From contig NZ_JAPMLM010000061.1 of assembly GCF_026410195.1 (NCBI RefSeq), positions 1-64,000 on the forward strand: 64,000 nucleotides of DNA. Reading direction: 5' to 3'. This DNA is from Xanthomarina sp. F2636L (GTDB lineage: Bacteria; Bacteroidota; Bacteroidia; Flavobacteriales; Flavobacteriaceae). Position numbers and translations under genes: made by a program. This document shows, one piece after another, positions 7,966 to 24,101 of this stretch (the stretch's first letter is position 1; each line of letters starts with the position of its first letter). The notes below the pieces were generated by a model. It was not told the origin of the DNA, searched no databases, and was given only the letters and a program-made list of their open reading frames with translations.

Positions 7966-7969
7966 ATAA

Positions 7970-9913
7970 ATGATTTTAGAAAAAATAAACATTAAAGATT
8001 ATAAGTCCATTTCTGAGTTAGAATGGATTTTAAATGATGGATTATCTTGCCTAGTAGGACAAAATGAAAGTGGCAAAAGTAACTTGTTGGAGGTTTTTGA
8101 TTTTATCGAAGGAAAGGAGGCTAAAAAATTAAACTTTGAAACTCATACAAATAGGTCAAGTGAGAGTTACAATAATCAAAAATTACCTACAATAATTTAC
8201 CATTTTAAATTTACAGAGGAATCGAAAAATAAATTTCTTGAAAAGCTTAACAAAGGAAAAATTGAAACAGCAAAACATGGAGGTATAGAAAATTTAACAC
8301 ATTATATAATAGAAATAGATGAAAGTCAAGGGGAAAATCAAAACATTTATTTTTTATGGAATGGTAAAAAAGTACACCCTAAGAGTTTGACTACTATTAG
8401 TTTACAAAATAGACAAGTTGGGGGTAGAGTGGCTTCAACAAAAAGAGAGGTTACAATTAACCAGCAAGTTTTAACTAATATTGTTAGAGATATTGATTCA
8501 ATAGTTCCTAATAGAATTAAGTTAAACGACCAGGATTTTAAAATAACTTTTAATAGTACATTAGAAAATATTAAAAATGGTTCTGCTAAAAACACTTCTA
8601 TATTTAAGTTAATGAAAATAGCAGGTTTAAATAACGCAAGTAGAATCCCTTCTGGACGTAACCAAATAAGGCAATACTTAAGAGGTTTAAATCGAAAACT
8701 GAACAAAGAATTTGTACATAAATACTATTCACAAGACAATAGTGTCAGGTTGGAATTTGTACATGATTCAGGTGAGATATCAGTAGATATTGAAGATAAT
8801 TCAGACGGAACTTATATAATGGAAGAACGAAGTGATGGTTTCAAATATTTTTTCTCATTATTAATAGAGATGGCATCTAATTTAATGGATAACGAAAATG
8901 TATATTTCCTGTTAGATGAGCCTGGAGGTAGACTACATCCGAGTGGTCAAAGAGATTTATTAAAATACCTTGAGGAGTTGGCAGACAAACATAAAATTAT
9001 ATACACAACTCATTCCCCTTTTTTGATTAATCGTCTTTATCCTAATCGTGTTAGAATTGTTGCTAGAGATCCAGAAAAGGGTACGGTATTCAAGTTTAAA
9101 GGGTTTTCTAAAAACTGGAAGCCAATGCGCTCATCATTAGGGCTCAATATTAAGGATAGTTTCTACTACTCAGATAAAGCTCTTATTGTAGAAGGGCCAG
9201 AAGATTTAATATTTATTTCTAGTCTTATAGAGTATTTTAATAGGATAGGTGAATTGGATTTGAATACGGATTTGTTTTCTTTTATTGATGCTGGAGGCGA
9301 GAGTAATTTACCTGCTATGGTTCAAATAATAATGGATGATGAAAGACCAACTTTAGTTTTAATTGATTCTGATTCTGTTTCAACCTATAACAAACTCAAT
9401 AAAAAAGTAAACGCAGTAGGTGATTCTTCTATCTTAGATTTAATCCAAGTTAATGAATTTAAAAAAGAAGCGATCTCGATTGAAGATTTATTACCATATC
9501 AACTATTACAAAATGCAGTAAAACTTTTTTGTGCAGAATTGGAATTGGATGGAACTTTGAAAAAAAAGAAACAAACTTCCAATGGACACGATGCATCAGC
9601 TATTGCAACTGCGGTCATGGCTGTTGCTAGTGAAGTTGCTTCATCAATTGCTACATTACCAATTGATTTGTCAAAAATATCTTCTTCAAGATATAATACT
9701 TCAATAGCTCATGCAGTTAAGAATTTTTATAACGAAGTAGATTTGGAAGAAGTTAAATGGAACAATAAAAAAACACCAATTTCTAAGGTTGGTATTGCGC
9801 GTCATTTTGAATTATTACTTCAAGAAGATAAAATAGATAAATCTAAAATGGATTTTAAACCAAGTTTAAAACTTGTTGAAACTATTGCAAAGAAACTAGG
9901 CTTATTGAGCTAA
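7970..9913 (+). CDS. OLD-family ATP-dependent nuclease (ABC ATPase plus TOPRIM)
   Basis: 647 residues. The N-terminal SMC/ABC-type ATPase has Walker A GQNESGKS (30-37), a signature-like RSDGFKYFFSLL, Walker B with Asp316-Glu317 (YFLLDEPGG), a D-loop LHPSG and the switch His in TTHSPF. The C-terminal TOPRIM domain has Glu408 (IVEGPED), the Gly-rich DAGGESNLP and Asp466/Asp468 (LIDSDS), the metal-binding residues of OLD nucleases. OLD proteins act in phage defence and DNA processing; class 2 members pair with a UvrD-like helicase (Gabija), which is absent here. It starts four bases after hsdM and precedes hsdS, so it belongs to this restriction operon. Its exact role with HsdMSR is inference. 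Confidence 0.88.
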   Translation: MILEKINIKDYKSISELEWILNDGLSCLVGQNESGKSNLLEVFDFIEGKEAKKLNFETHTNRSSESYNNQKLPTIIYHFKFTEESKNKFLEKLNKGKIETAKHGGIENLTHYIIEIDESQGENQNIYFLWNGKKVHPKSLTTISLQNRQVGGRVASTKREVTINQQVLTNIVRDIDSIVPNRIKLNDQDFKITFNSTLENIKNGSAKNTSIFKLMKIAGLNNASRIPSGRNQIRQYLRGLNRKLNKEFVHKYYSQDNSVRLEFVHDSGEISVDIEDNSDGTYIMEERSDGFKYFFSLLIEMASNLMDNENVYFLLDEPGGRLHPSGQRDLLKYLEELADKHKIIYTTHSPFLINRLYPNRVRIVARDPEKGTVFKFKGFSKNWKPMRSSLGLNIKDSFYYSDKALIVEGPEDLIFISSLIEYFNRIGELDLNTDLFSFIDAGGESNLPAMVQIIMDDERPTLVLIDSDSVSTYNKLNKKVNAVGDSSILDLIQVNEFKKEAISIEDLLPYQLLQNAVKLFCAELELDGTLKKKKQTSNGHDASAIATAVMAVASEVASSIATLPIDLSKISSSRYNTSIAHAVKNFYNEVDLEEVKWNNKKTPISKVGIARHFELLLQEDKIDKSKMDFKPSLKLVETIAKKLGLLS

Positions 9914-9932
9914 TTATAAATAACCATAGATT

Positions 9933-10184
9933 ATGAAAATAGAACTCAACATCCAACCGAACGAAGATTTATATTACTATTATATGAATTGGACAGCTCG
10001 TCAAGATAATAAAATACACAAAGCCACTTGTAGATTTTGCAATTACGGTACAGGAAGCCATCAAAATGTAAATAGGGGAGAAAATGGTGTCTGGGTAGGT
10101 CCATTTTCTTCATTAGAATTATGTGTTGAACACGTTCAGAATACATTAAACTTTCCACCTAATCTACATGCTTGCTGTGAATAA
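9933..10184 (+). CDS. 83-residue Cys/His-rich protein of unknown function
   Basis: Small acidic-basic mixed protein with CRFC (a Cys-x2-Cys knuckle), GENGVWVGPFSSLE, and a C-terminal segment with further Cys and His (ELCVEHV, LHACCE). The spacing suggests a zinc-binding fold. I recall similar short proteins next to restriction genes but no named function. It lies 19 bases after the OLD-type gene and its last 17 bases overlap the start of hsdS, so it is translated within the operon. It could be a partner of the nuclease or a small DNA-binding accessory. Confidence 0.65.
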   Translation: MKIELNIQPNEDLYYYYMNWTARQDNKIHKATCRFCNYGTGSHQNVNRGENGVWVGPFSSLELCVEHVQNTLNFPPNLHACCE

Positions 10185-11481
10185 CAACTGGAAAACATAT
10201 AAACTCTCTGAAGTCACAACCAAAATTGGAAGCGGAGCAACACCAAGAGGTGGAAAAGAAGCATATAAAGACTCGGGTGTTTCATTAATTAGAAGTCAGA
10301 ATGTTTTAGATTATAAGTTTTCAACTGATGGTCTTGCGTTTATAGATGACAAACAAGCATCCAAACTAAACAATGTTGCTATTGAGGAAAATGATGTTTT
10401 ACTAAATATAACAGGTGATTCAGTTGCAAGAGTATGTTCAGTTCCTAATGTGTTTTTACCAGCAAGAGTAAATCAACATGTAGCAATAATTAGAGCAGAT
10501 AATAAATTATTAGATGCAAATTATTTAAAGTATTCATTGCTCGAAATATCAAACAAAAACTTGTTACTAACATTGGCAAGTGCAGGAGCTACAAGAAATG
10601 CACTAACAAAATCAATGATTGAGGATTTTGAGTTGAACCTTCCAAAGTTACCAGAACAAAAAGCAATAGCAAAAATCCTCTCAGCCATAGACGACAAAAT
10701 AGAAAACAACCTAGCCATAAACAAAACCTTAGAAGACATGGCAATGGCACTGTACAAACATTGGTTTGTAGATTTTGGTCCTTTTCAAGATGGCGAGTTT
10801 GTGGATAGTGAGTTGGGTGAAATCCCTAAAGGTTGGGAAGTGAAAGTTTTAGGAGATTTTGTAAATCATCAAAAGGGTTTTGCTTTTAAATCTAAATGGT
10901 ATCAAGATCATGGTGAGTTAGTTGTAAGAGTAAGTGATACCACTCATAATTCTATAAATGTAGAGTCTTGTAATAAAATTTCAACTGAATTAGCTTCAAA
11001 ACATATTGCTTATTCTTTAGATACTGATGATGTTATTATTGCTACAGTTGGTTCTTGGCCACCAAATTACTCATCAGTTGTTGGTAAGGTTGTTAGAGTA
11101 CCAAAAACTGCTGAAGGAGGTTTGTTAAATCAAAATGCTGTTAGATTAAAAATGAATATTGATAATGAGCAACATCAAGGCTTATTGTATTGTACTTTAA
11201 AGAATAATAGATTTTTAAATTATATAGTAAATAGTGCTCAAGGTAGTGCGAGTCAAGCAAGTATCAAGTTAGTCGATATTTTTGAATATCCTATTCCTTT
11301 TGGAGGTATTGAAATATTTAATAAATTTTCAAATTTGATAGAATCAAATATTTCAGAACAGAATGCACTTATTTTAGAAAATCAAACCCTAACCAAACTA
11401 CGCGACACCCTATTATCAAAACTGATAAGTGGAGAGGTGCGTTTAAAAAAATTTAAAAAAGAAGTAGAATCAATACTATAA
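10168..11481 (+). CDS. hsdS: Type I restriction-modification specificity subunit (HsdS)
   Basis: 437 residues with the standard two-part HsdS layout. Target-recognition domain 1 covers ~5-165, then the first conserved helical spacer (LPEQKAIAKILSAIDDKIE) with the ALYKHWFVDF motif. Target-recognition domain 2 starts with GEIPKGWEV, and the second spacer ends LTKLRDTLLSKLISGEV. The two domains each read half of a bipartite DNA site. The ATG at 10168 overlaps the preceding gene; a GTG at 10177 is an alternative. The two spacers are not identical at DNA level, so domain swapping by simple recombination is not evident. Confidence 0.96.
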   Translation: MLAVNNNWKTYKLSEVTTKIGSGATPRGGKEAYKDSGVSLIRSQNVLDYKFSTDGLAFIDDKQASKLNNVAIEENDVLLNITGDSVARVCSVPNVFLPARVNQHVAIIRADNKLLDANYLKYSLLEISNKNLLLTLASAGATRNALTKSMIEDFELNLPKLPEQKAIAKILSAIDDKIENNLAINKTLEDMAMALYKHWFVDFGPFQDGEFVDSELGEIPKGWEVKVLGDFVNHQKGFAFKSKWYQDHGELVVRVSDTTHNSINVESCNKISTELASKHIAYSLDTDDVIIATVGSWPPNYSSVVGKVVRVPKTAEGGLLNQNAVRLKMNIDNEQHQGLLYCTLKNNRFLNYIVNSAQGSASQASIKLVDIFEYPIPFGGIEIFNKFSNLIESNISEQNALILENQTLTKLRDTLLSKLISGEVRLKKFKKEVESIL

Positions 11482-11492
11482 AAATAAAAAAC

Positions 11493-11636
11493 ATGGAATA
11501 CAAAATTGTACAAGAAAATCTCATAATTGGTTTATCAAATAAAGTAAATGAAGAAATTAGAAAAGGGTGGAAACCACAAGGAGGTGTTAATTTTAGACGC
11601 ACTGAAGGTTTTTTTCAAGCGATGATTAAAGAATAA
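11493..11636 (+). CDS. DUF1737 domain miniprotein
   Basis: 47 residues: begins MEYKIVQEN, then a helix (LSNKVNEEIRKGW), KPQGGVNF and the terminal FFQAMIKE. This matches the DUF1737 pattern of an N-terminal strand, a helix ending in GW.p.GG and a final strand with Q-A-M/L. The family is small, widespread and has no assigned role. It sits 11 bases after hsdS and before hsdR in the same direction, so it is probably carried on the restriction transcript. Confidence 0.75.
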   Translation: MEYKIVQENLIIGLSNKVNEEIRKGWKPQGGVNFRRTEGFFQAMIKE

Positions 11637-11672
11637 TAATTAATAAGATTCCTGATTGTGCAGAAAGTTGAT

Positions 11673-11768
11673 ATGACAACCGAAACAACCATAGAACAAG
11701 CTACCACACTTCCTGCGAAAGCAGGAATCTCTGTTGGTAAAAATGGATTATTGAATAAACCCAAATAG
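11673..11768 (+). pseudogene. Duplicated 5' end of hsdR interrupted by a palindromic repeat
   Basis: The first ~33 bases (MTTETTIEQAT) are nearly identical to the true hsdR start at 11770 (MTTEATIEQAT). They are followed by a TTCCTGC-GAAA-GCAGGAA palindrome and a short tail, and a stop codon ends it one base before the real hsdR ATG. The 31-residue frame looks like a displaced copy of the gene start and not a functional gene. If translated, it could feed ribosomes to hsdR by coupling. Confidence 0.75.
11709..11730. repeat. TTCCTGC-GAAA-GCAGGAA palindromic repeat
   Basis: Seven-base-pair perfect stem with a GAAA loop, flanked by C and TCT. It looks like a flavobacterial dispersed repeat and sits exactly at the junction of the duplicated hsdR 5' end. 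Confidence 0.7.
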
Positions 11769-11769
11769 T

Positions 11770-14700
11770 ATGACAACCGAGGCAACAATTGAACAAGCTA
11801 CTATTGAGTGGCTACAAGACCTTAACTACACACATGTAGATGGTAATGAGCTGCCTCAAAACCATAAAGAGGTTGTGCTGAAAGACCAGTTGTTGGCGTT
11901 TATTCAAAAACAATATCCACAGCTCCCAAACGAGATTCAAGAATTAGCCGTTGCAGAATTTACCCATAATGTAGGTGCAGACCTGGAGCATCGTAACAGA
12001 GACTTTCATTTAAAGCTCTCTAAAGGCAAGGAGTTCAGTTATGAAGATGCTTCTGGAAAGGAAAAAGCAGTCCACATCTACCCAATAGATTTTTCAGAAA
12101 CCGGTATACAGAACAATCGTTTTTTAGCGGTCACCCAATTCAGCATCACAGGAAAAAATAAACGCCGTCCAGACATCATCATTTACATCAATGGCTTACC
12201 ATTAATTGTCTTTGAACTCAAAAACTGGTACGACGAGAATACGACTATTAAAGAAGCACACAACCAAATACAACACTATAAAAAAGACATTCCTATATTG
12301 TTTGAGTACAATGCCTTAACTATTATTAGCGATGGTAACGAAGCCCAACATGGCATGTTTAGTTCTGGTATGGAATGGTTTGCACCTTGGAAAAGTATTG
12401 ATGGTGTTGAAACCGTTCAAGAAGACGATTTCCAAATGTACAGCTTGTTATTTGGCTTGTTCCCAAAAGAACGTATTCTTAATTACATCAAAAACTTCAT
12501 CTTTCACGAAGACCATAACGGCACACTCATTAAAAAAGGCGCCAAGTACCACCAGTTCTTTGGAGTAAATTTTGCTGTTGAGGCAGCTAAAAAATCAGTC
12601 CGGCCTTTTGGTGATGGTCGTATTGGCGTTATTTGGCACACCCAAGGGTCTGGAAAAAGTATTTCCATGGCTATGTATACTGGTATTTTACGCAGCTTAC
12701 CAGAATTAAAAAATCCAACCATTGTCGTTCAAGTAGATAGAAGCGATTTAGACCAACAACTCTATGAAAACTTTGTATTGGCAAAAGACCTGGTAGGCGA
12801 TGTCAACCATGCCGAAAGCACAGAAGATTTAAGAACCCTTTTAAGTGCTGGAGCTGGTGGTGTAATTTTTACAACCATAGAAAAGTTTCGTTTAAAACTA
12901 ACCACAGAAAATACTTTGGGTGAGTTAGAACACCCTATTCTTTCAGAACGTGAAAACATTATCGTCATGGCAGATGAGGCTCACAGAACCCAATATGGAT
13001 TGCTCGATGGCTTTGCATCTAATCTGCGTAAAGCCTTACCAAAAGCGTCTTTTATTGGTTTCACAGGAACACCAATAGACAGTAAAGATGCCGACACCCA
13101 AGAAGTCTTTGGAGACGTTATTCATACCTACGACATCAAACAAGCCGTAGAAGATAATGCAACCGTAAATATTTTTTATGAACCACGTTTGGCAAAACTT
13201 CATTTATGGAATGAAAACATAGATGATGAGGTAGATAAAATCACCGAAGATGTTGAAGATAATGGCAACTTAAAATGGGCAGCTATTGAAGATGCGGCAG
13301 GAAGTGAAGATAGAGTTAACAAAATAGCAAATGATATTCTCAACCATTTTAAAAAAAGAATAGCTACGTTAGATGGGAAAGCCATGGTGGTTTGCATGAG
13401 CAGACGTAACTGTGTAAAAATGTACAACGCCTTAACGGCTTTGGAAGGTTGTCCAGAAGTGGCTGTAGTAATGACTGGAAATATCTCAAAAGATCCCATA
13501 GCATGGAACGACCACTTCCGAACCAAGGACGCAACCGAAGCCTTAAAAAAACGTTTCCGTAAAGAAACCGACCCCTTAAAGATTGTCATTGTACGCGATA
13601 TGTGGTTGACAGGTTTTGATGCACCTTGTGTCCATACCATGTATGTAGATAAGATTATGAAAGGGCATACCTTAATGCAAGCTATTACACGAACCAATCG
13701 TGTATTTAAGGATAAAAAGAATGGCGTTATTGTCGATTATATTGGTATTGGCGATAATTTAAAATCGGCAACCGATAAATACACCAAAGGTGGAGGAAAA
13801 GGACAGCCAACCATTGATATGGAGCAAGCTTTAGAGTTGTTTTTTAATCAAATAGAGATTTGCAAAACCTTTCTTCCAGAAAATATAGACTACTCCCAAT
13901 GGAAAGTGCTTCGTGATGCAGACAAAGTATTATTAGTAAAACAAGCTATAAATTTTGTCATTAAGGACGATGAAGCTTCCAATAGCTTGATGTTGGAAGA
14001 GAAAAAACTATCTGGATTATTGTCCATAGTTAAAAGTCAGCCAGCCATTCAAGACCATGTGGTAGATGTCTTATTTATACAACATGTGTCCAAAGCTGTA
14101 CGTAATGCAAAATCGGTCAAATCGAGTAGGAGTGAGCAAAAAGAAAAAATAAAAGAACTCATCAGTCAGAGTATCGATTCCGAAGAAATAGTTGATGTAT
14201 TTGCCATGGCAGGAATTGAAAAACCAGACATATCTATTTTAGATGAGACCTTTCTGCTAGGCGCGAAAAAAGAAAAAGATGCCCATGCTTTAAAGATTGA
14301 ATTGATAAAGAACATCTTAAAAGACGAAATCAAATTACGTCTACATAAAAACATCAAGAAGTACACCTCATTAAGAGAAGAGCTAGAAAAAGTAATCGAT
14401 AAGTATCATAACAATGCTTTAGACAGTTATGCCACCATTGCCGAATTGATAGAGCGTTCTAAACAATTGCAAAACGATGATAAACGTACGGAAGAATTAG
14501 GCTTAACCGAAGAAGAATTAGCTTTTTATGACATTCTAGCCACCAAACAAGACATCATAAAAGAAGAAGGCCCAATACAAGATATCGTGCATGCGGTTGT
14601 AAAAGCAGTAAAAAAGAACTTACAACTAGACTGGACTAAAAAAGAAAACGCCAAAGCAGCGATACGCTTAGCTGTTAAAAAAGAATTACGAGGCAAAGTA

Positions 14701-14778
14701 TCATTAACTAAACTAAACGAAATACTTCAAGAAATCATGCAACAAGCCGAAGGGCAATATAGTGATTGGAGTGCTTAA
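11770..14778 (+). CDS. hsdR: Type I restriction endonuclease motor subunit (HsdR)
   Basis: 1002 residues, the normal HsdR length. The N-terminal PD-(D/E)xK nuclease shows RRPDIIIYINGLPLIVFELK. The two RecA-like motor domains follow, with Walker A TQGSGKS (residues 291-297), the DEAH box at 402-405 and GFTGTPI; motif VI lies in MQAITRTNR. The C-terminal ~330 residues are helical and dock on HsdM. It translocates DNA with ATP and cuts unmethylated DNA at a distance. No truncation or frameshift is visible, so with hsdM and hsdS the system looks complete. The ATG at 11770 is chosen over the decoy copy upstream. Confidence 0.97.
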   Translation: MTTEATIEQATIEWLQDLNYTHVDGNELPQNHKEVVLKDQLLAFIQKQYPQLPNEIQELAVAEFTHNVGADLEHRNRDFHLKLSKGKEFSYEDASGKEKAVHIYPIDFSETGIQNNRFLAVTQFSITGKNKRRPDIIIYINGLPLIVFELKNWYDENTTIKEAHNQIQHYKKDIPILFEYNALTIISDGNEAQHGMFSSGMEWFAPWKSIDGVETVQEDDFQMYSLLFGLFPKERILNYIKNFIFHEDHNGTLIKKGAKYHQFFGVNFAVEAAKKSVRPFGDGRIGVIWHTQGSGKSISMAMYTGILRSLPELKNPTIVVQVDRSDLDQQLYENFVLAKDLVGDVNHAESTEDLRTLLSAGAGGVIFTTIEKFRLKLTTENTLGELEHPILSERENIIVMADEAHRTQYGLLDGFASNLRKALPKASFIGFTGTPIDSKDADTQEVFGDVIHTYDIKQAVEDNATVNIFYEPRLAKLHLWNENIDDEVDKITEDVEDNGNLKWAAIEDAAGSEDRVNKIANDILNHFKKRIATLDGKAMVVCMSRRNCVKMYNALTALEGCPEVAVVMTGNISKDPIAWNDHFRTKDATEALKKRFRKETDPLKIVIVRDMWLTGFDAPCVHTMYVDKIMKGHTLMQAITRTNRVFKDKKNGVIVDYIGIGDNLKSATDKYTKGGGKGQPTIDMEQALELFFNQIEICKTFLPENIDYSQWKVLRDADKVLLVKQAINFVIKDDEASNSLMLEEKKLSGLLSIVKSQPAIQDHVVDVLFIQHVSKAVRNAKSVKSSRSEQKEKIKELISQSIDSEEIVDVFAMAGIEKPDISILDETFLLGAKKEKDAHALKIELIKNILKDEIKLRLHKNIKKYTSLREELEKVIDKYHNNALDSYATIAELIERSKQLQNDDKRTEELGLTEEELAFYDILATKQDIIKEEGPIQDIVHAVVKAVKKNLQLDWTKKENAKAAIRLAVKKELRGKVSLTKLNEILQEIMQQAEGQYSDWSA

Positions 14779-14791
14779 TAAAAGAATCATT

Positions 14792-15055
14792 ATGGAGTAT
14801 AGCAAAGTAGTTAAAATGGGATATGTAATTGAAGAGTTTTTAAAAATTAAAAAACTTAAAAATGCGAAGCCTAAAGAACTAATGCCAATGCTTATTGAAA
14901 AAGGGTTCTTTAATCAAGACCATAGAGACGGTTTACCCTTAAGAAATGTCCTTAGGGACTTAGATGAAAAGAACATGTTATATCTATTACCACAAGTTGA
15001 AGTAGAACGAAAAGAAACCAATCGTTTTTGGTTTTTTAATGCAATAAATATCTAA
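14792..15055 (+). CDS. 87-residue protein coupled to the caspase-like peptidase
   Basis: The ATG at 14792 is preferred; a GTG at 14762 would overlap hsdR. The protein is helical then beta: a basic KIKKLKNAKPKE helix, then LPLRNVLRDLDEKNMLYLLP and a final strand with RFWFFN. This resembles a small winged-helix domain of the kind that reads DNA or proteins. Its stop TAA overlaps the next ATG (TAATG), so the two proteins are made together. I know no named family. An inhibitor, substrate or sensor of the peptidase are all possible. Confidence 0.6.
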   Translation: MEYSKVVKMGYVIEEFLKIKKLKNAKPKELMPMLIEKGFFNQDHRDGLPLRNVLRDLDEKNMLYLLPQVEVERKETNRFWFFNAINI

Positions 15056-15624
15056 TGACCAAGAGAGATTATATTCGTGATATTTTTTGTTTAGAAGGTG
15101 ATTGGGATGAGAATTTAAGAAATTCTGGAACCATTGCACCAGCTCTTAATTTATTAGAAAAAAATTGTGGTATTGAAGTTTTACATAAAACATGTTCTAC
15201 CAAAAAAGAATTTAAGTCTAGAATCCAGCATATTGTTAATGGTAATCAAAAAAGTTATTCTAGATTTCAAATAATCTATTTAGCTTTTCATGGAATCGAT
15301 AATGAAATTGATTTGGGAGTTGAAAGTATTTCATTGTCTAAATTATCTAAATATTTCTCCGAGGATTTCAGCAATCGCATTATCCATTTTGGTAGTTGTA
15401 AAACGATTTCTTCTAAAGAAAATGTAGAAGAACTTTTGCGTAATACAGAAGCACTTGCTGTTACTGGATATTCAAAAGATATTGATTTTATACCTAGTAC
15501 AGTAATGGATATTCTTTTTTTTGAAGAATGTCAAAACTGGAAGAGAATAGAAACCATTGAGAAAAAAATGAAATCTAAATATGGACAATTAATGAATGAT
15601 TTGGGTTTTGAGATTTATTATTAA
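15055..15624 (+). CDS. Caspase/CHAT-like cysteine peptidase
   Basis: 189 residues with the two hallmarks of clan CD peptidases. A hydrophobic strand ends in His-Gly (IIYLAFHG, His79), and a second strand ends in Gly-Ser-Cys (IIHFGSC, Cys115), 36 residues apart as in caspases and CHAT proteins. A later AVTGYSKDIDF segment fits the strand after the Cys. It may belong to the family named DUF6642, which I recall only approximately. Small caspase-like proteases act as cell-death effectors in several bacterial defence systems, so this protein between HsdR and McrB is probably an effector or regulator. No signal peptide is present. Confidence 0.72.
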   Translation: MTKRDYIRDIFCLEGDWDENLRNSGTIAPALNLLEKNCGIEVLHKTCSTKKEFKSRIQHIVNGNQKSYSRFQIIYLAFHGIDNEIDLGVESISLSKLSKYFSEDFSNRIIHFGSCKTISSKENVEELLRNTEALAVTGYSKDIDFIPSTVMDILFFEECQNWKRIETIEKKMKSKYGQLMNDLGFEIYY

Positions 15625-15645
15625 AACAGAAGATAGTAATACAAT

Positions 15646-18603
15646 ATGATATTTGAGAAAGTAAAATCAGAACATATTCGTCAAGGAATCAAGGATTTTG
15701 AAGAAAAAGGATTACCAAATGGATTTGGTTCTTCTTCCACCTATGATTTAGTTTTTGGTGATAAAAGATATCCTCCTAAAGCCATTATGGCTTATGCAAA
15801 TTTTCATGCAGTAGGTGATACTCCAAACAATAATTTTAGTGGAGGAGAGGGAACAGATTGTTTTAAAGCTTTTGAAAGATATAGGTTTATAATTGAAAAG
15901 AAAGTTAATAATATGTACGAGAAGTTATATGCATTAAAGCAAGAGTTTTTAGATACTTGGCTAGTTGAAAAATTGGAACAAATGACTATAGAAGAATATA
16001 CCAATCTAGATAGGGAGGATTCGTTTTGTTATTGGTTAGAACATGTTAGCCGAGATTTAGGAAGTATTGTTGGTGGAAGCTCTTATAAATTTGGTATTTA
16101 TAAAATGGCTGAAACTTCTAAAACCGAAAAAGCTAGTAACAGAACCAATAATGGTGAATATGCTTGGCATACTAAATATGGTAATACCCAAGAGGTAGCC
16201 TTTAATAATATCAAAGCCATTATTATTAAAATAGCAAAAGCATCTCAAGCCAATAATTTAGAGCTTATAGACACTATAGATTTAGGACATGCCTACAAAT
16301 GGAAAATAGCCTTTATGTATGGCGATTTTAATTGCTTAAATGCTTTTAAAATAGATGCCTTACGGGTTATTGCTACCAATCTTGGAATAGATTATACCAA
16401 TAAAACACCAGTTTCTAAATTTCATAATCAAATTATAAAAACAAAGCCTGTTGGTGTAGAATATTTTACTTGGAGTCATGGTTTATGGAAGCAATACGAA
16501 ACACGTTTAAGAGATGTAAAAAAAGAGTTTGCAAAATGGTTAAATGAAAATACATTCGAATCTTATCGTGCATACCTAGGACATACAAACAAAAGTATTG
16601 AAGATAGACTGGATGAGATTAATAACTATTTTGATGATCTTAATTTCTTTTTAGTAAATCCTACTAATATTAATGGTTTAGTAAGTTCCATTCTATTTTT
16701 ATTGAGTAAAAAAGAACGTGTAAAAAATCCAGAATTTGTAGAATATGATTCTAAAAATAGTAATGGAATACCTAAAGCCATCTTGGGTAAAAACAATTAC
16801 ATCAAATTCTTAAAAGAAACGTTCGATTATCAAGAACCTAATTATTGGATCTTTCAAGGCAATCCTAACACTTATAATATAACCAATGCTTTAAAAGCAG
16901 CACATTTAAAATCTTGGAAAGTTACAGCACATAAAGACAAGATAAAAGTTGGAGATCAAGTTATATTATGGCAAACAGGAGACAAGGCAGGTTGCTATGC
17001 TTTAGCAGAGGTAACTTCGGAGGTTGGTATTTTTAAGGAAGAAGCTTTTGAGCAGCAATATTACATAAATCAAGAAGCAAGTACAGCTACGGATCGGGTT
17101 AAGATAAAGATCACTAAATATCTTGCAGACAATCCTATTTTATGGGAAGACATAAAATACAACCCTACTTTTTCAGATTTTAAAGCAGGAAATCAAGGCA
17201 CAAATTTTAGTGCTACTGAAGAAGAGTTTAATGCTTTATTAAATTGGAATATAACAAACAATACTGTTTCAGAAGAGGCAACCAAATATAACCTAAAAAT
17301 GAAAGCAAGAAATCAAATACTTTATGGTCCACCAGGAACAGGAAAAACGTTTTATTTAAAAGACCAGTTGTTTGATAGGTATACATTGAAAGAAAACGCA
17401 GTAACTAAAGAAAAATATTTTGAGGAAATTGTAACAAATCTAACATGGTGGCAAGTCATCACTTTAGCACTTATTGAAATAGGAACTGCTAAAGTAAATG
17501 CTATTTTAGAAAATAGATGGGTAGCAAAAAAAGCAGCATTATCTGATTCTAAAAATGTGAGAGCTACTATTTGGGGAACTTTGCAAATGCATACTATCGC
17601 AGAATCTGAAACTGTGGCTTATAAACAACGTCAAAACCCTTTAATTTTTGATAAAACTAAAGATAAACTGTGGATGTTGTTAAATGAAGAAGTTAAAGAG
17701 CAAATCCCAGAAATATTTGACATTTTAAAGGACATCAATGATTTTGAAATAAGTCCTCAAAAAGCAATTAAAAACTTTGACTTTGTAACCTTTCATCAAT
17801 CCTTTGCCTACGAAGATTTTATTGAAGGTATTAAACCAATTCTACCAGAAACAGAAGGAGAAGAAGCTAAGGATTTAGGATATGCTATTGAAGATGGTGT
17901 TTTTAAACAATTATGTACAAAAGCCAAAAACGATCCAGATAATCGTTATGCTATTTTTATAGATGAAATAAACAGAGGAAATGTCTCTGCTATTTTTGGT
18001 GAATTAATTACACTAATTGAATTAGATAAACGTAAAGGTGCAAAAAACGAATTGAGTATTAAATTACCATACTCTAAAAAAGAATTTTCTGTGCCTTCTA
18101 ATCTAGATATTTATGGCACCATGAATACTGCAGATAGATCTGTAGAGGCCTTAGACACCGCTTTAAGACGTCGCTTCGAGTTTAAAGAAATGATGCCAGA
18201 TTATACCATTATTCAAGAGGAGGAAGTAGATGGCATTCAACTTTCAGAAGTATTGGAAAAGATTAATCAACGCATTGAATTATTGATAGATAGGGATCAT
18301 ACCATTGGGCATTCTTATTTTGTAAATGTCAATACACCCGAAAAATTAGCTAAAGCTTTTAATAATAAAATTGTGCCTCTATTGCAGGAGTATTTTTATG
18401 GCGATTATGGTAAAATTGGATTAGTGCTAGGGAAGGGGTTTGTTGATGTAATCGATAATAAAGATATTGAATTTGCAAGCTTTAAATATGAAAATTCTAA
18501 CGATTATAAAATTCCAAGTTATCAATTAATTTCAGTGAAGAAAGACACAGTGATTGAAGCTGTTAAATTATTATTAGGAAAGAAAGAATTTATTTCAGAA
18601 TAA
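15646..18603 (+). CDS. mcrB: McrB-type AAA+ GTPase with EVE domain
   Basis: 985 residues. An N-terminal ~85-residue domain (HIRQGIKDFEEKGLPNGFG, YPPKAIMAYA) resembles the head domain of McrA/McrB-like modification-dependent restriction enzymes. A helical middle (90-390) follows, then a PUA-like EVE domain at ~398-540 (NYWIFQGNP, GDQVILWQTG, GCYALAEVTS) that in this family reads modified bases. The C-terminal AAA+ domain has Walker A GPPGTGKT (561-568), AIFIDEINRGN and the McrB-specific MNTADRS (from Met826). With McrC it forms a type IV system that cuts modified DNA. McrC starts directly after the stop. It lies 21 bases after the peptidase gene. Confidence 0.93.
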   Translation: MIFEKVKSEHIRQGIKDFEEKGLPNGFGSSSTYDLVFGDKRYPPKAIMAYANFHAVGDTPNNNFSGGEGTDCFKAFERYRFIIEKKVNNMYEKLYALKQEFLDTWLVEKLEQMTIEEYTNLDREDSFCYWLEHVSRDLGSIVGGSSYKFGIYKMAETSKTEKASNRTNNGEYAWHTKYGNTQEVAFNNIKAIIIKIAKASQANNLELIDTIDLGHAYKWKIAFMYGDFNCLNAFKIDALRVIATNLGIDYTNKTPVSKFHNQIIKTKPVGVEYFTWSHGLWKQYETRLRDVKKEFAKWLNENTFESYRAYLGHTNKSIEDRLDEINNYFDDLNFFLVNPTNINGLVSSILFLLSKKERVKNPEFVEYDSKNSNGIPKAILGKNNYIKFLKETFDYQEPNYWIFQGNPNTYNITNALKAAHLKSWKVTAHKDKIKVGDQVILWQTGDKAGCYALAEVTSEVGIFKEEAFEQQYYINQEASTATDRVKIKITKYLADNPILWEDIKYNPTFSDFKAGNQGTNFSATEEEFNALLNWNITNNTVSEEATKYNLKMKARNQILYGPPGTGKTFYLKDQLFDRYTLKENAVTKEKYFEEIVTNLTWWQVITLALIEIGTAKVNAILENRWVAKKAALSDSKNVRATIWGTLQMHTIAESETVAYKQRQNPLIFDKTKDKLWMLLNEEVKEQIPEIFDILKDINDFEISPQKAIKNFDFVTFHQSFAYEDFIEGIKPILPETEGEEAKDLGYAIEDGVFKQLCTKAKNDPDNRYAIFIDEINRGNVSAIFGELITLIELDKRKGAKNELSIKLPYSKKEFSVPSNLDIYGTMNTADRSVEALDTALRRRFEFKEMMPDYTIIQEEEVDGIQLSEVLEKINQRIELLIDRDHTIGHSYFVNVNTPEKLAKAFNNKIVPLLQEYFYGDYGKIGLVLGKGFVDVIDNKDIEFASFKYENSNDYKIPSYQLISVKKDTVIEAVKLLLGKKEFISE

Positions 18604-19848
18604 TTGAATAAAAGGGGAAATATATCTGTTTTTGAGCATCAACGATTATACGTTGGTGAACATGGCTTTAAGCAAGTACACTTAGATGCTTTATTAAAAC
18701 TTAACGAATATCACGATGGTAATTATTTTGAGCCTATAGCCAAAGGAATAAAGTTTAATCAATACGTGGGTGTTATTCAGGTTGATGGTCTAACTATTGA
18801 AATTCATCCGAAAGCCGATAAAGACGATGAGGACAGAAAGTGGAAAGGTGTTTTAATTAAAATGCTACAGGCCTGTGGGAAACTGAAAGCAGAATCTTCT
18901 GGTGCAGCACATGTAAAAAGACAGCATCTTAATTTATTAGAAGTTTATTTTGAGTTGTACCTATTAGAGGTTGAGAATCTTGTTAGAAAAGGATTAATAA
19001 AACAATACAGACATCAAACTAAAAACACAAAAGCTTTAAAAGGGAAGTTAGAGTTTGCCGGACATATTAGAAAAAATGTGGTTCATAAAGAGCGATTTTT
19101 CACGACGCATCAAGTTTATGATCAGGATCACTTTTTACATCAGGTTTTATATAAAGCTTTAACTGTTGTTGCCCAATTTACAAAAGGCTCCAGATTACAA
19201 GATTTATCCAATAGAGTGCAGTTAAACTTTCCGGAAGTAGCTAATAAGACTATTACTGCAAAGCAATTGCAGGCGATACAATTAAATAGAAAATCTAATG
19301 CTTATAGTTATGCTTTAGAATTAGCGAGACTAATTATTTTAAACTATTCTCCAGATATTTCTAGTGGAAAAGAAAAGATGCTTTCCCTTCTGTTCGATAT
19401 GAATGTCCTTTGGGAAGAGTATATATTAAAACAGCTTCAAAAAGCTTGTATTGGGGCAGGAATTACAGTTTCAGGACAAGAATCAAAATCCTTCTGGGGA
19501 AATAATAGTTTAAGACCTGATGTTGTTTTGAGAGAAGGGGAGAATACCTACATTATAGACACCAAATGGAAACGACCACAAAAAAGCTCTGCTTCAGTTT
19601 CCGATTTAAGACAAATGTATAGCTATTGTCGTTTTTGGGATGCAGAAAAAGCTATGCTACTATATCCTGGTGATTTTAAAACCAACATGTTCCAAGTTTT
19701 CGAGACAGATGATTATTCTGTAGGTCAAGCGGGTACATTAAAAATCGACCATCAGTGTAAAATGGGGTTTGTGTCTGTTTTGGATGAAGGAGGAGAATTG
19801 GATAAAAATATTGGGGAGAAGATAATACAGCTTTTATACAACATATAA
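18604..19848 (+). CDS. mcrC: McrC endonuclease subunit
   Basis: 414 residues. The N-terminal domain that binds the McrB ring has VFEHQRLYVG, YVGVIQVDGLTIEIHPKAD. The C-terminal PD-(D/E)xK nuclease has Asp306 in RPDVVL and Asp319-x-Lys321 in IDTKWK. The start is TTG immediately after the mcrB stop; no ATG lies near, and the family's conserved N-terminus begins within ten residues, so the TTG is accepted. The nuclease core is intact. It is the last gene of the + strand restriction block. Confidence 0.93.
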   Translation: MNKRGNISVFEHQRLYVGEHGFKQVHLDALLKLNEYHDGNYFEPIAKGIKFNQYVGVIQVDGLTIEIHPKADKDDEDRKWKGVLIKMLQACGKLKAESSGAAHVKRQHLNLLEVYFELYLLEVENLVRKGLIKQYRHQTKNTKALKGKLEFAGHIRKNVVHKERFFTTHQVYDQDHFLHQVLYKALTVVAQFTKGSRLQDLSNRVQLNFPEVANKTITAKQLQAIQLNRKSNAYSYALELARLIILNYSPDISSGKEKMLSLLFDMNVLWEEYILKQLQKACIGAGITVSGQESKSFWGNNSLRPDVVLREGENTYIIDTKWKRPQKSSASVSDLRQMYSYCRFWDAEKAMLLYPGDFKTNMFQVFETDDYSVGQAGTLKIDHQCKMGFVSVLDEGGELDKNIGEKIIQLLYNI

Positions 19849-19949: not shown

Positions 19950-20705
19950 CTAAATCCCGAACATCGTTCTCATTTTTGTTATAAACCCTGCTTTTTCTTG
20001 ATCGGCTATTAAAAAGGTTTCTTGGCAGTTATGTAAGTTGAGGTGTTTGTTATCTCTATTTTTTATTTTAGAGACATTGATAATTGTACTTTGATTAATT
20101 TTTTCAAACCCAAAAGGGCTTAGTTTTTTATAAAAATCGTTAATGCTTATACGCACATTACTTTCAATCACTTCATCGTTTTTGCCATATATATTCACAC
20201 AATTTTTATGGGCTTGTTTTCCTTTTATATTTCTTGAAGTACTTATATAATAAGCTTTTTCTGGATAGAAACCTATATCTTTATGAGTGCCTATACGAAT
20301 GCTAATTAAATCTGCTTTTTGGTGTTTTTGTATTGGGTTTATATTTCCAATAACTTTGTTTTTAAGAATAAGCTTAAATTCTTCAATATCGAAAGGTTTG
20401 CTTAAATAACCCGACACGTTTAAGGCGTTCATCATTTTAGGGCCATTATTTGTGGTTGATGTTAAAAACACAATCTTTTTATTTGTGCCAATTTTTTGTG
20501 CTAACTCAATGCCGTTATATACAGGCATATCAAAATCTACAAGAAGTAAATCGTAATCATCTGGATGAACTTCTTCAAATGCCTTTTTTGAGCTACTATA
20601 GCTTTGAATATGTTTTAAACCAAAATCTTTAGAAATGGTATCAATCTTAGTTTTGACCCAATTTAAAATCTTAGGATCGTCGTCAATTAGTATGTATCGT
20701 ATCAT
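19950..20705 (-). CDS. LytTR-type response regulator
   Basis: 251 residues. The receiver domain has the acidic triplet at 8-10, the phospho-acceptor Asp57 (LLLVDFDMP), a Thr/Ser in FLTST and the Lys of SGYLSKPF. The C-terminal LytTR-type DNA-binding domain has KINQSTIINVSKI and the preceding strands. It starts directly after the partner kinase stop (20706), so the two genes form one two-component unit. The target is unknown. It is convergent with mcrC and lies between two defence modules. Confidence 0.9.
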   Translation of the reverse strand: MIRYILIDDDPKILNWVKTKIDTISKDFGLKHIQSYSSSKKAFEEVHPDDYDLLLVDFDMPVYNGIELAQKIGTNKKIVFLTSTTNNGPKMMNALNVSGYLSKPFDIEEFKLILKNKVIGNINPIQKHQKADLISIRIGTHKDIGFYPEKAYYISTSRNIKGKQAHKNCVNIYGKNDEVIESNVRISINDFYKKLSPFGFEKINQSTIINVSKIKNRDNKHLNLHNCQETFLIADQEKAGFITKMRTMFGI

Positions 20706-21719
20706 TTAATTTAAACTTAAGGTTAATTCAGAAAGATATTGATTGTTAGGGAGTGTTTTATGTACTAGTTTGCTATTCGGATAATACGCATCGAGTAGCT
20801 GTTGCAATGCATTTAATCCAAATTGTCCAGAATGCTGTACTTCCATTTGATTGTCACTTTTATGCTCGGCGCTATTCACTAAGCAATAACTTAACTGTTT
20901 TTGCTCTGTTTCTTTTAGGGTGATTGAAATAAATGATTCTTTATTATTTAAACTACCATGTTTTAAGGCGTTTTCAACAAAAGGAAAAAATAAAGTTGGC
21001 TTTATTTTTAAATTTTTTCTTAGCTCATTATTTAGCATGTTTTTTAATTCGATATGTGCATGGGGTCTTAAATATTGGATGAGTTCCATAAACATATTAA
21101 TATGAAGCCATTCTTCTTCTAAATCAATGTGTTCTTTATTAAGAGCAGACACATTATAATCTAAAAGTTTGAAAATTTGCTTTAAAGCTTTTAGTGAAGG
21201 TATCTTGTTTTCTGTTTTCTTAAAGCTATAATAAATGCCTAAAAAGGATTTGTGATTATTTTCAGCATGTTCTAAATCCATATAAATCTGATTAATCACA
21301 TTCTTAATAAAATGTGCACCAAGTCTGGTGTTGTTGGCTTCTACATTTTTAAAATTTACGTAACGTTCGTAAGCTTGTTTCTGATGATTTATAACCTCTT
21401 TTTGCTGTTCTATTTCTATCTCTTTTTGGCTTAGCGTATCATAAAACTTTTGCTTGTAGCCTTCCAAATTAGCCTTGAGCTGTATGATATCATTTTGACT
21501 AATTACAAGCTTATTTTCTAATAATTCCACTTTGCTTACTTGAGTTTTGAATTTTTCTACCTCAATTTTGCTAGCTTTTAATTCGTCTGTTAATCTTCTA
21601 TTCTTTTTCCTAAAAGAGCGTTTCTTGTAGAGGTTATACCAGTTTCTTATTGTAACTAAAATAAATAAACCTAAGAGAATTAAAAAAACAATTCTAAAAT
21701 CATCTGAAGGGTTTTGCAT
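20706..21719 (-). CDS. LytS-type sensor histidine kinase
   Basis: 337 residues. A single N-terminal transmembrane helix (~9-25) is followed by a long coiled coil (~40-120). The His_kinase domain has the probable phospho-acceptor His136 (RLGAHFIKNVINQI), the N-box FFPFVENALKHG and the Gly motif GQFGLNAL. There is no periplasmic sensor domain, so the signal is probably cytosolic, from within the membrane or passed through the coiled coil. It is divergent from the viperin operon, with 213 bases between the starts, so control of that operon is possible but not shown. Confidence 0.88.
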   Translation of the reverse strand: MQNPSDDFRIVFLILLGLFILVTIRNWYNLYKKRSFRKKNRRLTDELKASKIEVEKFKTQVSKVELLENKLVISQNDIIQLKANLEGYKQKFYDTLSQKEIEIEQQKEVINHQKQAYERYVNFKNVEANNTRLGAHFIKNVINQIYMDLEHAENNHKSFLGIYYSFKKTENKIPSLKALKQIFKLLDYNVSALNKEHIDLEEEWLHINMFMELIQYLRPHAHIELKNMLNNELRKNLKIKPTLFFPFVENALKHGSLNNKESFISITLKETEQKQLSYCLVNSAEHKSDNQMEVQHSGQFGLNALQQLLDAYYPNSKLVHKTLPNNQYLSELTLSLN

Positions 21720-21932
21720 AAGTGTGGTTAGTAGGGTTTAAAAATAATTAAGAATAGCGATGGTTATTGGTTTGGATTTAGATATCACAAAAGTTAGGGG
21801 TTATATCCCAAATATAAGCAGTCTATCACAAACTGGGAAATTTAATTTTAATCAACTGCATATTTACAGTATCAAAGAGAGCTGTTAGTAAGATAGTAAG
21901 CCTCTTAGGTGTTAATTTAATAATTAAAACAA

Positions 21933-23396
21933 ATGAAAAATAAAATCACATTAAGTGGATTTGCAGGTTCAGGAAAGTCAACTGTTGGAGAATTAATCCA
22001 AACCAAATTAGGATACGAATTTATTTCTGTAGGTAACTATTCAAGGTTATTTGCTAAGGAATATTATGGTATGACAATTAATCAATTTCAAGAAAAATGT
22101 AAAAAAGAACCTGAGTTAGATTTTCAAATAGATGAAAAATTTAAATCGCTTTGTAATAGTAAAAAACATGCCATTATTGATTATAGATTAGGATTCAAAT
22201 TTATAGAGAAAGGTTTTCATGTGTTGTTAAAAGTTTCTGATAACACTGCTTTTGAAAGAATTAACATAGCTAAGAGAGAAAGTGAATTAACAACTCCTGA
22301 AAGTGTTAGCAGTAGGAATAGGACTATGCGAAAAAGATTTTTAGAAACGTATAAAGTGGATTTTACGGATGAAATGAATTATGATTTGGTAATAAATACA
22401 GATCATTTGAATTCTTATCAAGTTGCATCAAAAATTATTAAAGCTTTCCAAGATTATAATGGTGAAACGGAAAAATTAATAACTGAAGATATGAAATCCA
22501 TCCAACCAATTCCGAGTGTGAATTATCATCTATGGGAACCGTGTAATATGCGTTGTAAATTTTGTTTTGCAACTTTTAAAGATGTAAAACAGACTATTTT
22601 ACCAAAAGGACACTTGCCAGAAGCAGACGCTTTAAAAGTTGTGGAACATATTGCGGCAGCAGGTTTTAAGAAAATAACCTTTGCAGGTGGCGAGCCTTTA
22701 CTTTGCAAATGGTTACCAAAATTAATTATGAAAGCTAAGGGATTAGGAATGACCACCATGATTGTAACCAATGGAAGTAAATTAACGGATGCTTTTTTAA
22801 AAGCAAATATCGATTATTTAGATTGGATTGCAGTAAGTGTAGATAGTTTAGAGGAGGAAAACAATATTAAAATTGGTAGAGCTATTACAGGAAAAAGTCC
22901 ATTAAGTAAAGGGTTTTATTTTGATTTAGTGGATAACATTAAGAAGTATGGATATGGCTTAAAGATTAATACTGTAGTCAATAAAATAAATTATAAAGAT
23001 AACTTAACGGAATTAATAGAATACGCTAAACCACAACGTTGGAAAGTACTACAGGTATTACCAATAGTGGGGCAAAATGATATTAAAATAGATGATTTTA
23101 TAATCACGACAGAAGAGTATAACTATTTTTTAAAAACACATACTGCTATAGAAACAATAGTACCAGAGTCTAATGATGAAATTAAAGGTAGTTATGTAAT
23201 GGTTGATCCTGCAGGACGTTTTTTTGACAATGCAGCAGGAACACATAATTATAGCAAACCTATTTTGGAGGTTGGGATAAAAGAAGCTTTAAAAACAGTT
23301 AATTACAACCTCAATAAGTTTTTAGATAGGGGTGGTGTTTATGATTGGGAGAATGTTAAAAACAAAGATTTAAGAGAGGAGGACGCAAAATCATGA
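21933..23396 (+). CDS. CMP-kinase-like domain fused to prokaryotic viperin
   Basis: 487 residues in two domains. Residues 1-175 are a P-loop nucleotide kinase with GFAGSGKST (Walker A). The ISVGNYSRLFAKEYYGM and ELDFQIDEKF segments match the archaeal-type cytidylate kinase pattern. Residues ~185-487 are a radical SAM enzyme of the viperin family: Cys204/208/211 (CNMRCKFC) hold the 4Fe-4S cluster, GGEP is at 252-255, and the family-specific blocks KVLQVLPIVGQND, GSYVMVDPAGRFFDNA and a RGGVY end are present. Known prokaryotic viperins convert CTP, UTP or GTP to 3'-deoxy-3',4'-didehydro forms that stop phage RNA synthesis. A kinase fusion would raise local substrate. It is the first gene of a three- or four-gene operon. 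Confidence 0.93.
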   Translation: MKNKITLSGFAGSGKSTVGELIQTKLGYEFISVGNYSRLFAKEYYGMTINQFQEKCKKEPELDFQIDEKFKSLCNSKKHAIIDYRLGFKFIEKGFHVLLKVSDNTAFERINIAKRESELTTPESVSSRNRTMRKRFLETYKVDFTDEMNYDLVINTDHLNSYQVASKIIKAFQDYNGETEKLITEDMKSIQPIPSVNYHLWEPCNMRCKFCFATFKDVKQTILPKGHLPEADALKVVEHIAAAGFKKITFAGGEPLLCKWLPKLIMKAKGLGMTTMIVTNGSKLTDAFLKANIDYLDWIAVSVDSLEEENNIKIGRAITGKSPLSKGFYFDLVDNIKKYGYGLKINTVVNKINYKDNLTELIEYAKPQRWKVLQVLPIVGQNDIKIDDFIITTEEYNYFLKTHTAIETIVPESNDEIKGSYVMVDPAGRFFDNAAGTHNYSKPILEVGIKEALKTVNYNLNKFLDRGGVYDWENVKNKDLREEDAKS

Positions 23397-23680
23397 GAAA
23401 TCATTTAGTAGGTTTTTGTAAATCAGAGCACTTTACATACAGACAATGGGATAGAAAAATAAGCGATAAAGTGCTAACGTATGTGTTAAAAAATGTAGAG
23501 ACAAATAAATGTAATACGCTTCTTATAGTTAGCCGAAAAGTATTGAAAAATATGAATATTAAAGTAAACAAGGAGTTGTTTATTAAAATAGATAATAATA
23601 CTTTAATTACTTGTTTTTATTGTGATTTTCAGAAATACAAATGTTCAAATAAAATACAAAATTATTTAATTATTCAATAA
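23393..23680 (+). CDS. 95-residue protein coupled to viperin
   Basis: The ATG overlaps the viperin stop (ATGA), so translation is coupled. The protein has SEHFTYRQWDRKIS, then TLLIVSRKVLKN, LFIKID and LITCFYCDF. The Arg-rich N-terminus and short beta-sheet resemble DUF4258 or small RelE-like folds, but only weakly by eye. Five cysteines lie in the window-length protein, none in a classical zinc motif. It may be a small accessory, an inhibitor of the viperin or a toxin-like protein. I do not assign a function. Confidence 0.6.
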   Translation: MRNHLVGFCKSEHFTYRQWDRKISDKVLTYVLKNVETNKCNTLLIVSRKVLKNMNIKVNKELFIKIDNNTLITCFYCDFQKYKCSNKIQNYLIIQ

Positions 23681-23690
23681 ATTTAAAAAA

Positions 23691-24101
23691 ATGAAGAAAG
23701 TGCTATTAATTGATGTGGATGGAGTTTTGGTGGAGTTAGGAGATGGGCCATTTAGTGAAAATAAAAATAAAAAAGACTTTTTTTTAAATAATAAACCAAT
23801 AGAGGGAGCGGTAGATGCATTTAAAAAATTGGGCCAACTTTATGATTGCTACATTGTATCAACACCAGTGTGGAGTAATCCTTATTGTTGGATGGAAAAA
23901 CGGATATGGGTTGAAAAACATTTAGGTAGGGATGCTTATAAAAGATTGATACTTACACATAATAAAGACTTAGTAAAAGGAGATTATATCATTGATGATA
24001 CAAAAAATTATGGAGTTGATAAATTTGGAAAAAAACATATTCATTTTGGAAGTGATACCTTTTTAGGTTGGAAAAATGTTCTAGATTTTCTGTTACATTA
24101 G
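23691..24101 (+). CDS. HAD-family 5'(3')-deoxyribonucleotidase-like phosphatase
   Basis: 136 residues with the HAD motifs of the NT5C nucleotidase family. Motif I is LIDVDGVL (Asp nucleophile plus general acid Asp), motif II a Ser/Thr in YIVSTP, motif III Lys near TLTHNK-like LILTHNKDLV, and motif IV GDYIIDD. The WVEKHLG segment is typical of the nucleotidase cap region. These enzymes remove phosphate from (deoxy)nucleoside monophosphates. Its place ten bases after the viperin-coupled gene suggests it handles viperin substrates or products, or removes competing nucleotides. This pathway role is inferred. Confidence 0.82.
   Translation: MKKVLLIDVDGVLVELGDGPFSENKNKKDFFLNNKPIEGAVDAFKKLGQLYDCYIVSTPVWSNPYCWMEKRIWVEKHLGRDAYKRLILTHNKDLVKGDYIIDDTKNYGVDKFGKKHIHFGSDTFLGWKNVLDFLLH

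Follow-up and report, generated by a model that had tools for sequence, protein, structure and literature searches.

A gene for a viperin fused to a nucleotide kinase in Xanthomarina sp. F2636L (contig NZ_JAPMLM010000061.1, positions 1 to 64,000; this whole stretch of 64,000 nucleotides is called the window) probably belongs to an inducible antiphage operon under the control of its own two-component system. Genes for a LytS-like histidine kinase and a LytTR response regulator diverge from the fusion gene, and an operator-like array of three direct repeats lies between the two transcription units (Table 1). An earlier note on this DNA, made from the sequence alone, had described the fusion as an archaeal-type cytidylate kinase joined to a viperin; both domain types held up in outline, and the archaeal cytidine monophosphate (CMP) kinase assignment did not.

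Linkage of a LytTR regulator and a repeat array to viperin genes

Among Bacteroidota viperin loci with enough sequence, 33 of 55 had a regulator of this family no more than 1.8 kb upstream of viperin (six duplicate loci were dropped, and three further Bacteroidota loci, which were too short, were counted apart), while outside this phylum none of 18 loci had one within that distance. An evenly drawn sample of the class included 15 genomes with viperin; the regulator was present in five of them, and of the ten without it two had little upstream sequence. The window's genome contains 13 LytTR genes in 3.37 Mb, so that about 1% linkage would be expected by chance, by arithmetic from this one genome. 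The regulator is divergent from viperin in some loci and co-directional with it in others, and the arrangement must therefore have arisen more than once or been reshuffled. All seven loci in which the kinase precedes viperin in the fusion (the window, L009, L010, L011, L037, L065 of the cultivable relative Gelidibacter gilvus, and L105; L numbers are our locus labels) carry a divergent histidine kinase followed by the LytTR-type regulator.

Pfam recognised Response_reg in 32 and LytTR in 29 of the 33 regulators, and residues D57 and K103 were invariant across all 33 sequences, the window's included. A histidine kinase was present in 20 of the 33 regulator loci, its invariant residues (Table 1) including a candidate phospho-acceptor histidine and N-box residues. 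PF06580 matched 16 of these 20 proteins at E 0.01, the window's protein reaching just 17.9 bits (cut-off 25.2). By eye, the latter has a hydrophobic N-terminal segment and a Lys/Glu-rich middle, and is without a recognised sensor domain. In regulator-less loci with neighbours called, a protein of 514-1031 amino acids (aa) occupied the regulator slot in 12 of 14 cases; two of these proteins were compared with PADLOC models, and the viperin-associated NERD model matched both, with 514 bits for L028 (strong) and 31 bits for L013 (weak).

When the divergent intergenic regions of the window and its relatives were aligned, TATC(A/C)CAAA-like words appeared three times at 20-21 bp steps. The exact two-repeat pattern occurred in the array and nowhere else in the window's 3.37 Mb genome (0 in the backwards control), and never in 100 shuffles of the window. 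In many co-directional loci the stretch from regulator to viperin contained another word (TTTCATTAC-like), repeated at that same spacing. Period and per-locus tests were run on 32 of the 33 regulator loci, L032 being excluded since its called viperin frame overlaps the regulator. Motif-free self-match gave z values of 6.7 at lag 21 and 4.8 at lag 41 in divergent loci (n = 10), and of 7.9 and 5.3, respectively, in co-directional loci (n = 22), all larger than the maximum that any lag reached over 300 shuffles (4.44 and 4.13, respectively). Lag 20 exceeded the shuffle maximum in co-directional loci (z 5.5) but not in divergent loci (4.0), and all remaining lags gave 2.8 or less. As shuffles lose relatedness, the regulator-less loci and control lags are the better controls for repeat spacing. 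Of the 22 regulator-less loci 14 were used, and in these z reached 1.6 for lag 20, 1.8 for lag 21 and nowhere more than 2.4. Scored one by one, 20 of 32 loci matched in 8 or more of 9 positions at lag 20 or 21 (control lag pairs: mean 2.7, maximum 5); thinning at 80% viperin identity left 22 loci, of which 13 matched (control lag pairs: mean 1.2, maximum 4); L025 passed through a low-complexity word, and the fragment L069 was kept without identity comparison. LytTR regulators classically bind direct repeats that are separated by two turns of the helix, and judged by its sequence the array fits this pattern, with repeats spaced about 21 bp at the putative target promoter.

The two-component system could instead be a mere neighbour in a defence island, regulating something else or itself alone. 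The window is indeed such an island, with type I restriction genes and McrBC, and divergent promoters are able to serve the regulator alone. This reading is nevertheless improbable, given that the linkage recurs in 33 Bacteroidota loci and two orientations, that the co-directional repeats sit between the regulator and viperin, with viperin being the next gene, and that the exact array has no second copy in the window's genome. Operon control by the linked pair remains the preferred reading.

By eye, an apparent hairpin lies just upstream of the viperin gene, after a tiny gene, in L009, L010, L037, L012, L015 and L105; its arms differ between loci yet match each other, and it is perhaps a terminator or attenuator.

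The kinase-viperin fusion and the spread of kinase pairing

The fusion is a single 487-residue open reading frame with every motif placed as the earlier note had it: GFAGSGKST at aa 9-17, ELDFQIDEKF at 61-70, the CxxxCxxC cysteines at 204/208/211 and VDPAGRFFDNA at 424-434. A CMP-kinase-like domain and a true viperin domain thus share one polypeptide, separated by a linker for which the predicted structure has a predicted local distance difference test (pLDDT) score below 50 at residues 180-189; relatives' linkers are shorter. The six other kinase-first fusions are 68-76% identical to the window protein, and since this order recurs in seven loci, chance as the source of the fusion is excluded. 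Both halves retain their catalytic residues and evolve under purifying selection, the kinase domain having a ratio of nonsynonymous to synonymous substitution rates (dN/dS) of 0.11-0.21 in six pairs.

The C-terminal half combines the CxxxCxxC cluster motif with a viperin fold and scored 322.5 bits against the viperin equivalog NF038283 (cut-off 180), in line with other prokaryotic viperins (pVips), from which the window's differs in having a kinase on the same chain and inducible-looking regulation. MoaA models match this domain weakly (81.2 bits vs a cut-off of 284.05), and it is hardly conceivable that it is a MoaA-like radical S-adenosylmethionine (SAM) enzyme with a different role; that identity was rejected, and the viperin designation stands. 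A second radical SAM protein (G000:C65:822941-823525, L002), 25% identical to the viperin half, is probably MoaA-like.

The N-terminal half is cytidylate-kinase-like, with 44.6 bits for PF13189 Cytidylate_kin2 (gathering cut-off 28) and 38.3 bits for AAA_18 (cut-off 29.4). Its nucleotide kinase residues are in place: 31 positions are invariant across 18 kinases including the window's, among them G9, G14, K15, T17, R38, D83, R85, R109, R115 and R128, and the PADLOC kinase model VakA matched all 18. The archaeal part of the assignment failed, TIGR02173 (archaeal CMP kinase) giving 79.4 bits for the whole protein and 82.3 for the domain alone against a cut-off of 102.1. CMPK2 is thymidylate-kinase-like; membership of that family was rejected for the window's kinase, Thymidylate_kin (PF02223) not being among its seven Pfam families at E 0.001 or better.

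The fusion as such is a further member of an already catalogued type, and any claim of novelty for it was dropped: the PADLOC-DB 2.0.0 model PDLC02905 ('pVip-kinase: Viperin-kinase fusion') aligned over aa 1-485 with profile positions 1-473 of 474 (E 1.1e-266). The likeness lies in the domain order and full-length match, but the model covers the fusion alone. No PADLOC model was matched by the window's histidine kinase, the small downstream protein sm95 or the nucleotidase, nor by the L018 and L038 regulators or the L018 histidine kinase and sm95; the window's regulator matched PDC-M60C alone (17.6 bits).

According to a review (PMC11249213), 15% of bacterial viperin genes adjoin a CMPK2-like kinase. 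Our architecture tree, a quick tree of modest support, comprised 72 viperins after exclusion of six duplicates and four fragments. The kinase was N-terminal in seven, C-terminal in seven and encoded by a neighbouring gene in nine, while 49 had none at the threshold used (more than 60 bits for this kinase family and a distance of no more than 300 bp, which leaves weak kinases and those of other families scored as absent). A single origin of the pairing was rejected, the tree requiring 14 changes for the four architecture states and six for kinase-last alone. Kinase-first fusions are confined to one subclade, which also contains kinase-less members; in one of these (Aequorivita, L012:5726-7011) the N-terminal kinase is broken up and the viperin half open, which suggests that kinase loss is possible. 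The reverse order, viperin then a kinase of the same family, was seen in the Bacteroidota loci L016, L018, L019, L023, L025, L026 and L095, and remnants of a broken gene of this order in the genome of a class member (L097:5316-5657). Elsewhere, thymidylate-kinase-like genes adjoin viperin (L043, L045 and L111, the last on a cyanobacterial plasmid), as does a deoxynucleotide monophosphate kinase-like gene in L053, which matches PF21448 and no PADLOC model. That the recruited kinases belong to three Pfam families favours the view that a monophosphate kinase is functionally needed, and leaves the base unfixed. In six myxococcal viperin loci (L053, L058-L062) a downstream gene overlaps by four bases, the one in L053 being the deoxynucleotide monophosphate kinase-like gene. 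No match at E 1e-10 was found among 50,697 phage records, and the 14 plasmid records matched at E 1e-20 were all below 60% identity.

Downstream genes and genomic setting

The gene for sm95 lies immediately downstream of the fusion in all seven kinase-first loci and, among the genomes searched, is confined to viperin carriers. It has no Pfam match, and a PDB sequence search with its profile gave a single match, to a transporter (E 1.4). PMC10865869 places HicA/RelE genes beside pVip genes; sm95 resembles these in its small size, its place next to viperin and its tentative RelE-superfamily fold, and differs in having no Pfam match, its family membership being tentative.

A pyrimidine 5'-nucleotidase of the NT5C family follows in six of the seven kinase-first loci (in L037 as a shortened frame). 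The kinase may be a CMP (or uridine monophosphate, UMP) kinase feeding cytidine or uridine triphosphate (CTP, UTP) to the attached viperin for conversion to the 3'-deoxy-3',4'-didehydro (ddh) forms ddhCTP or ddhUTP, a reading to which we give somewhat less than an even chance. CMP as substrate and ddhCTP as product are unproven, because the kinase scores under the archaeal CMP-kinase cut-off, and the substrate choice of the window's viperin could not be derived from sequence. Alternatively, and rather unlikely in our estimate, the kinase could act after viperin, re-phosphorylating ddh-nucleoside monophosphates from RNA turnover with the nucleotidase as its counterpart, the pair setting the chain-terminator pool. 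The two enzymes would then share one level, the monophosphate, but L065 is without the nucleotidase, as are most viperin loci (relatives were found near 8 of 76).

A tiny protein ('leadA'), Asn/Gly/Lys-rich, of 43-50 aa and with an end like GNRGKQLNPNQ, adjoins viperin in several relatives (Table 1) and has no match in the window's genome. Nine of ten carrier genomes have one copy each (that of L046 weak and stop-interrupted) and the tenth has two. It was discarded as a viperin-specific part: of the five carriers among 249 genomes of the family, three are viperin-free, and these have the regulator pair nowhere within some 4.5 kb. The last gene of a Poribacteria viperin operon encodes a small Gly/Lys/Asn-rich protein of similar make-up (L043:7534-7800), and in a viperin-free genome a 763-aa frame near a 'leadA' gene (L128:3644-5935) gives a weak match (19 bits) to the viperin profile. 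Upstream of the viperin locus, the window's defence island spans 6349-19848.

Table 1. Features of the viperin locus, its surroundings and related loci (window coordinates unless a locus is named)
Feature	Position	Strand	Remarks
LytTR response regulator	19950..20705	-	PF00072 55.8 bits, PF04397 27.4 bits, both above cut-off
LytS-like histidine kinase	20706..21719	-	H136, N140, N250, H254, G255 invariant in 20 sequences including the window's
Operator-like array, three direct repeats	21783..21832	+	TATCACAAA 21783-21791, TATCCCAAA 21804-21812, TATCACAAA 21824-21832
Kinase-viperin fusion gene	21933..23396	+	single frame of 487 aa from an ATG, uninterrupted by stops
CMP-kinase-like P-loop kinase domain	21933..22451	+	aa 1-173, Walker A GFAGSGKST
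Inter-domain linker	22452..22508	+	aa 174-192, low-confidence stretch of structure model
Viperin radical SAM domain	22509..23360	+	aa 193-476, cluster Cys204/208/211
sm95, 95-aa protein	23393..23680	+	4-base overlap of its start with the fusion stop; RelE/HigB-like fold, tentative
136-aa HAD 5'-nucleotidase, NT5C type	23691..24101	+	PF06941 49 bits, cut-off 24.8
Type I restriction genes	methyltransferase 6349-7965, specificity 10168-11481, restriction 11770-14778		upstream defence island
OLD/AriA-like ATPase	7970-9913		among type I restriction genes
McrBC	15646-19848		McrB-like protein has EVE domain
Tiny 'leadA' protein	L009:5797-5937, L010, L012, L015, L037		upstream of viperin
Tiny 'leadA' protein	L019, L029, L039, L108		downstream of viperin

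Proposed operation and meaning

In the proposed mechanism the LytS-type histidine kinase, probably membrane-anchored, would sense a signal and phosphorylate the LytTR regulator, which would bind the three repeats and step up transcription of the genes for kinase-viperin, sm95 and nucleotidase. The kinase domain would convert a nucleoside monophosphate, probably a pyrimidine, to the diphosphate, host enzymes completing the triphosphate, and the viperin domain would turn the triphosphate into its ddh form, ending the RNA chains of phage polymerases. The sm95 protein may help as a RelE-like RNase, and the nucleotidase could serve to trim monophosphates or to remove modified ones.

A LytS-like kinase, a LytTR regulator and direct repeats about 21 bp apart are shared with LytTR systems of the AgrA, VirR and ComE type, whereas the window's pair is linked to an antiviral enzyme. 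The open-access literature searched, which does not include the principal pVip paper, yielded no such case and no mention of a regulator linked to viperin; within that scope the regulatory layer seems new to print. Vertebrate viperin (RSAD2) is induced on infection. It too is paired with a nucleoside monophosphate kinase, CMPK2, but CMPK2 is a separate gene, whereas the window has a fused CMP-kinase-like domain, and control is by interferon rather than by the proposed two-component system; the vertebrate and bacterial pairings look convergent. We consider it an evenly balanced proposition that Bacteroidota viperin is a signal-induced response, with an infection-detecting histidine kinase, a LytTR regulator, a dedicated tandem-repeat operator, and a viperin-kinase acting with a RelE-like protein and a nucleotidase, as an independent counterpart of the interferon-induced RSAD2-CMPK2 pair.

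The locus offers a specific, testable answer to the question of how bacteria restrain an enzyme that makes chain terminators until there is need of it, with named regulator genes, a 50-bp operator-like array, and a cassette of regulator pair and sm95 in all seven kinase-first loci. The regulator pair offers a route to the infection signal, and the fusion lets substrate feeding and product salvage be compared on one protein. If the proposal is true, viperin here would be an inducible defence, much as it is in animals.
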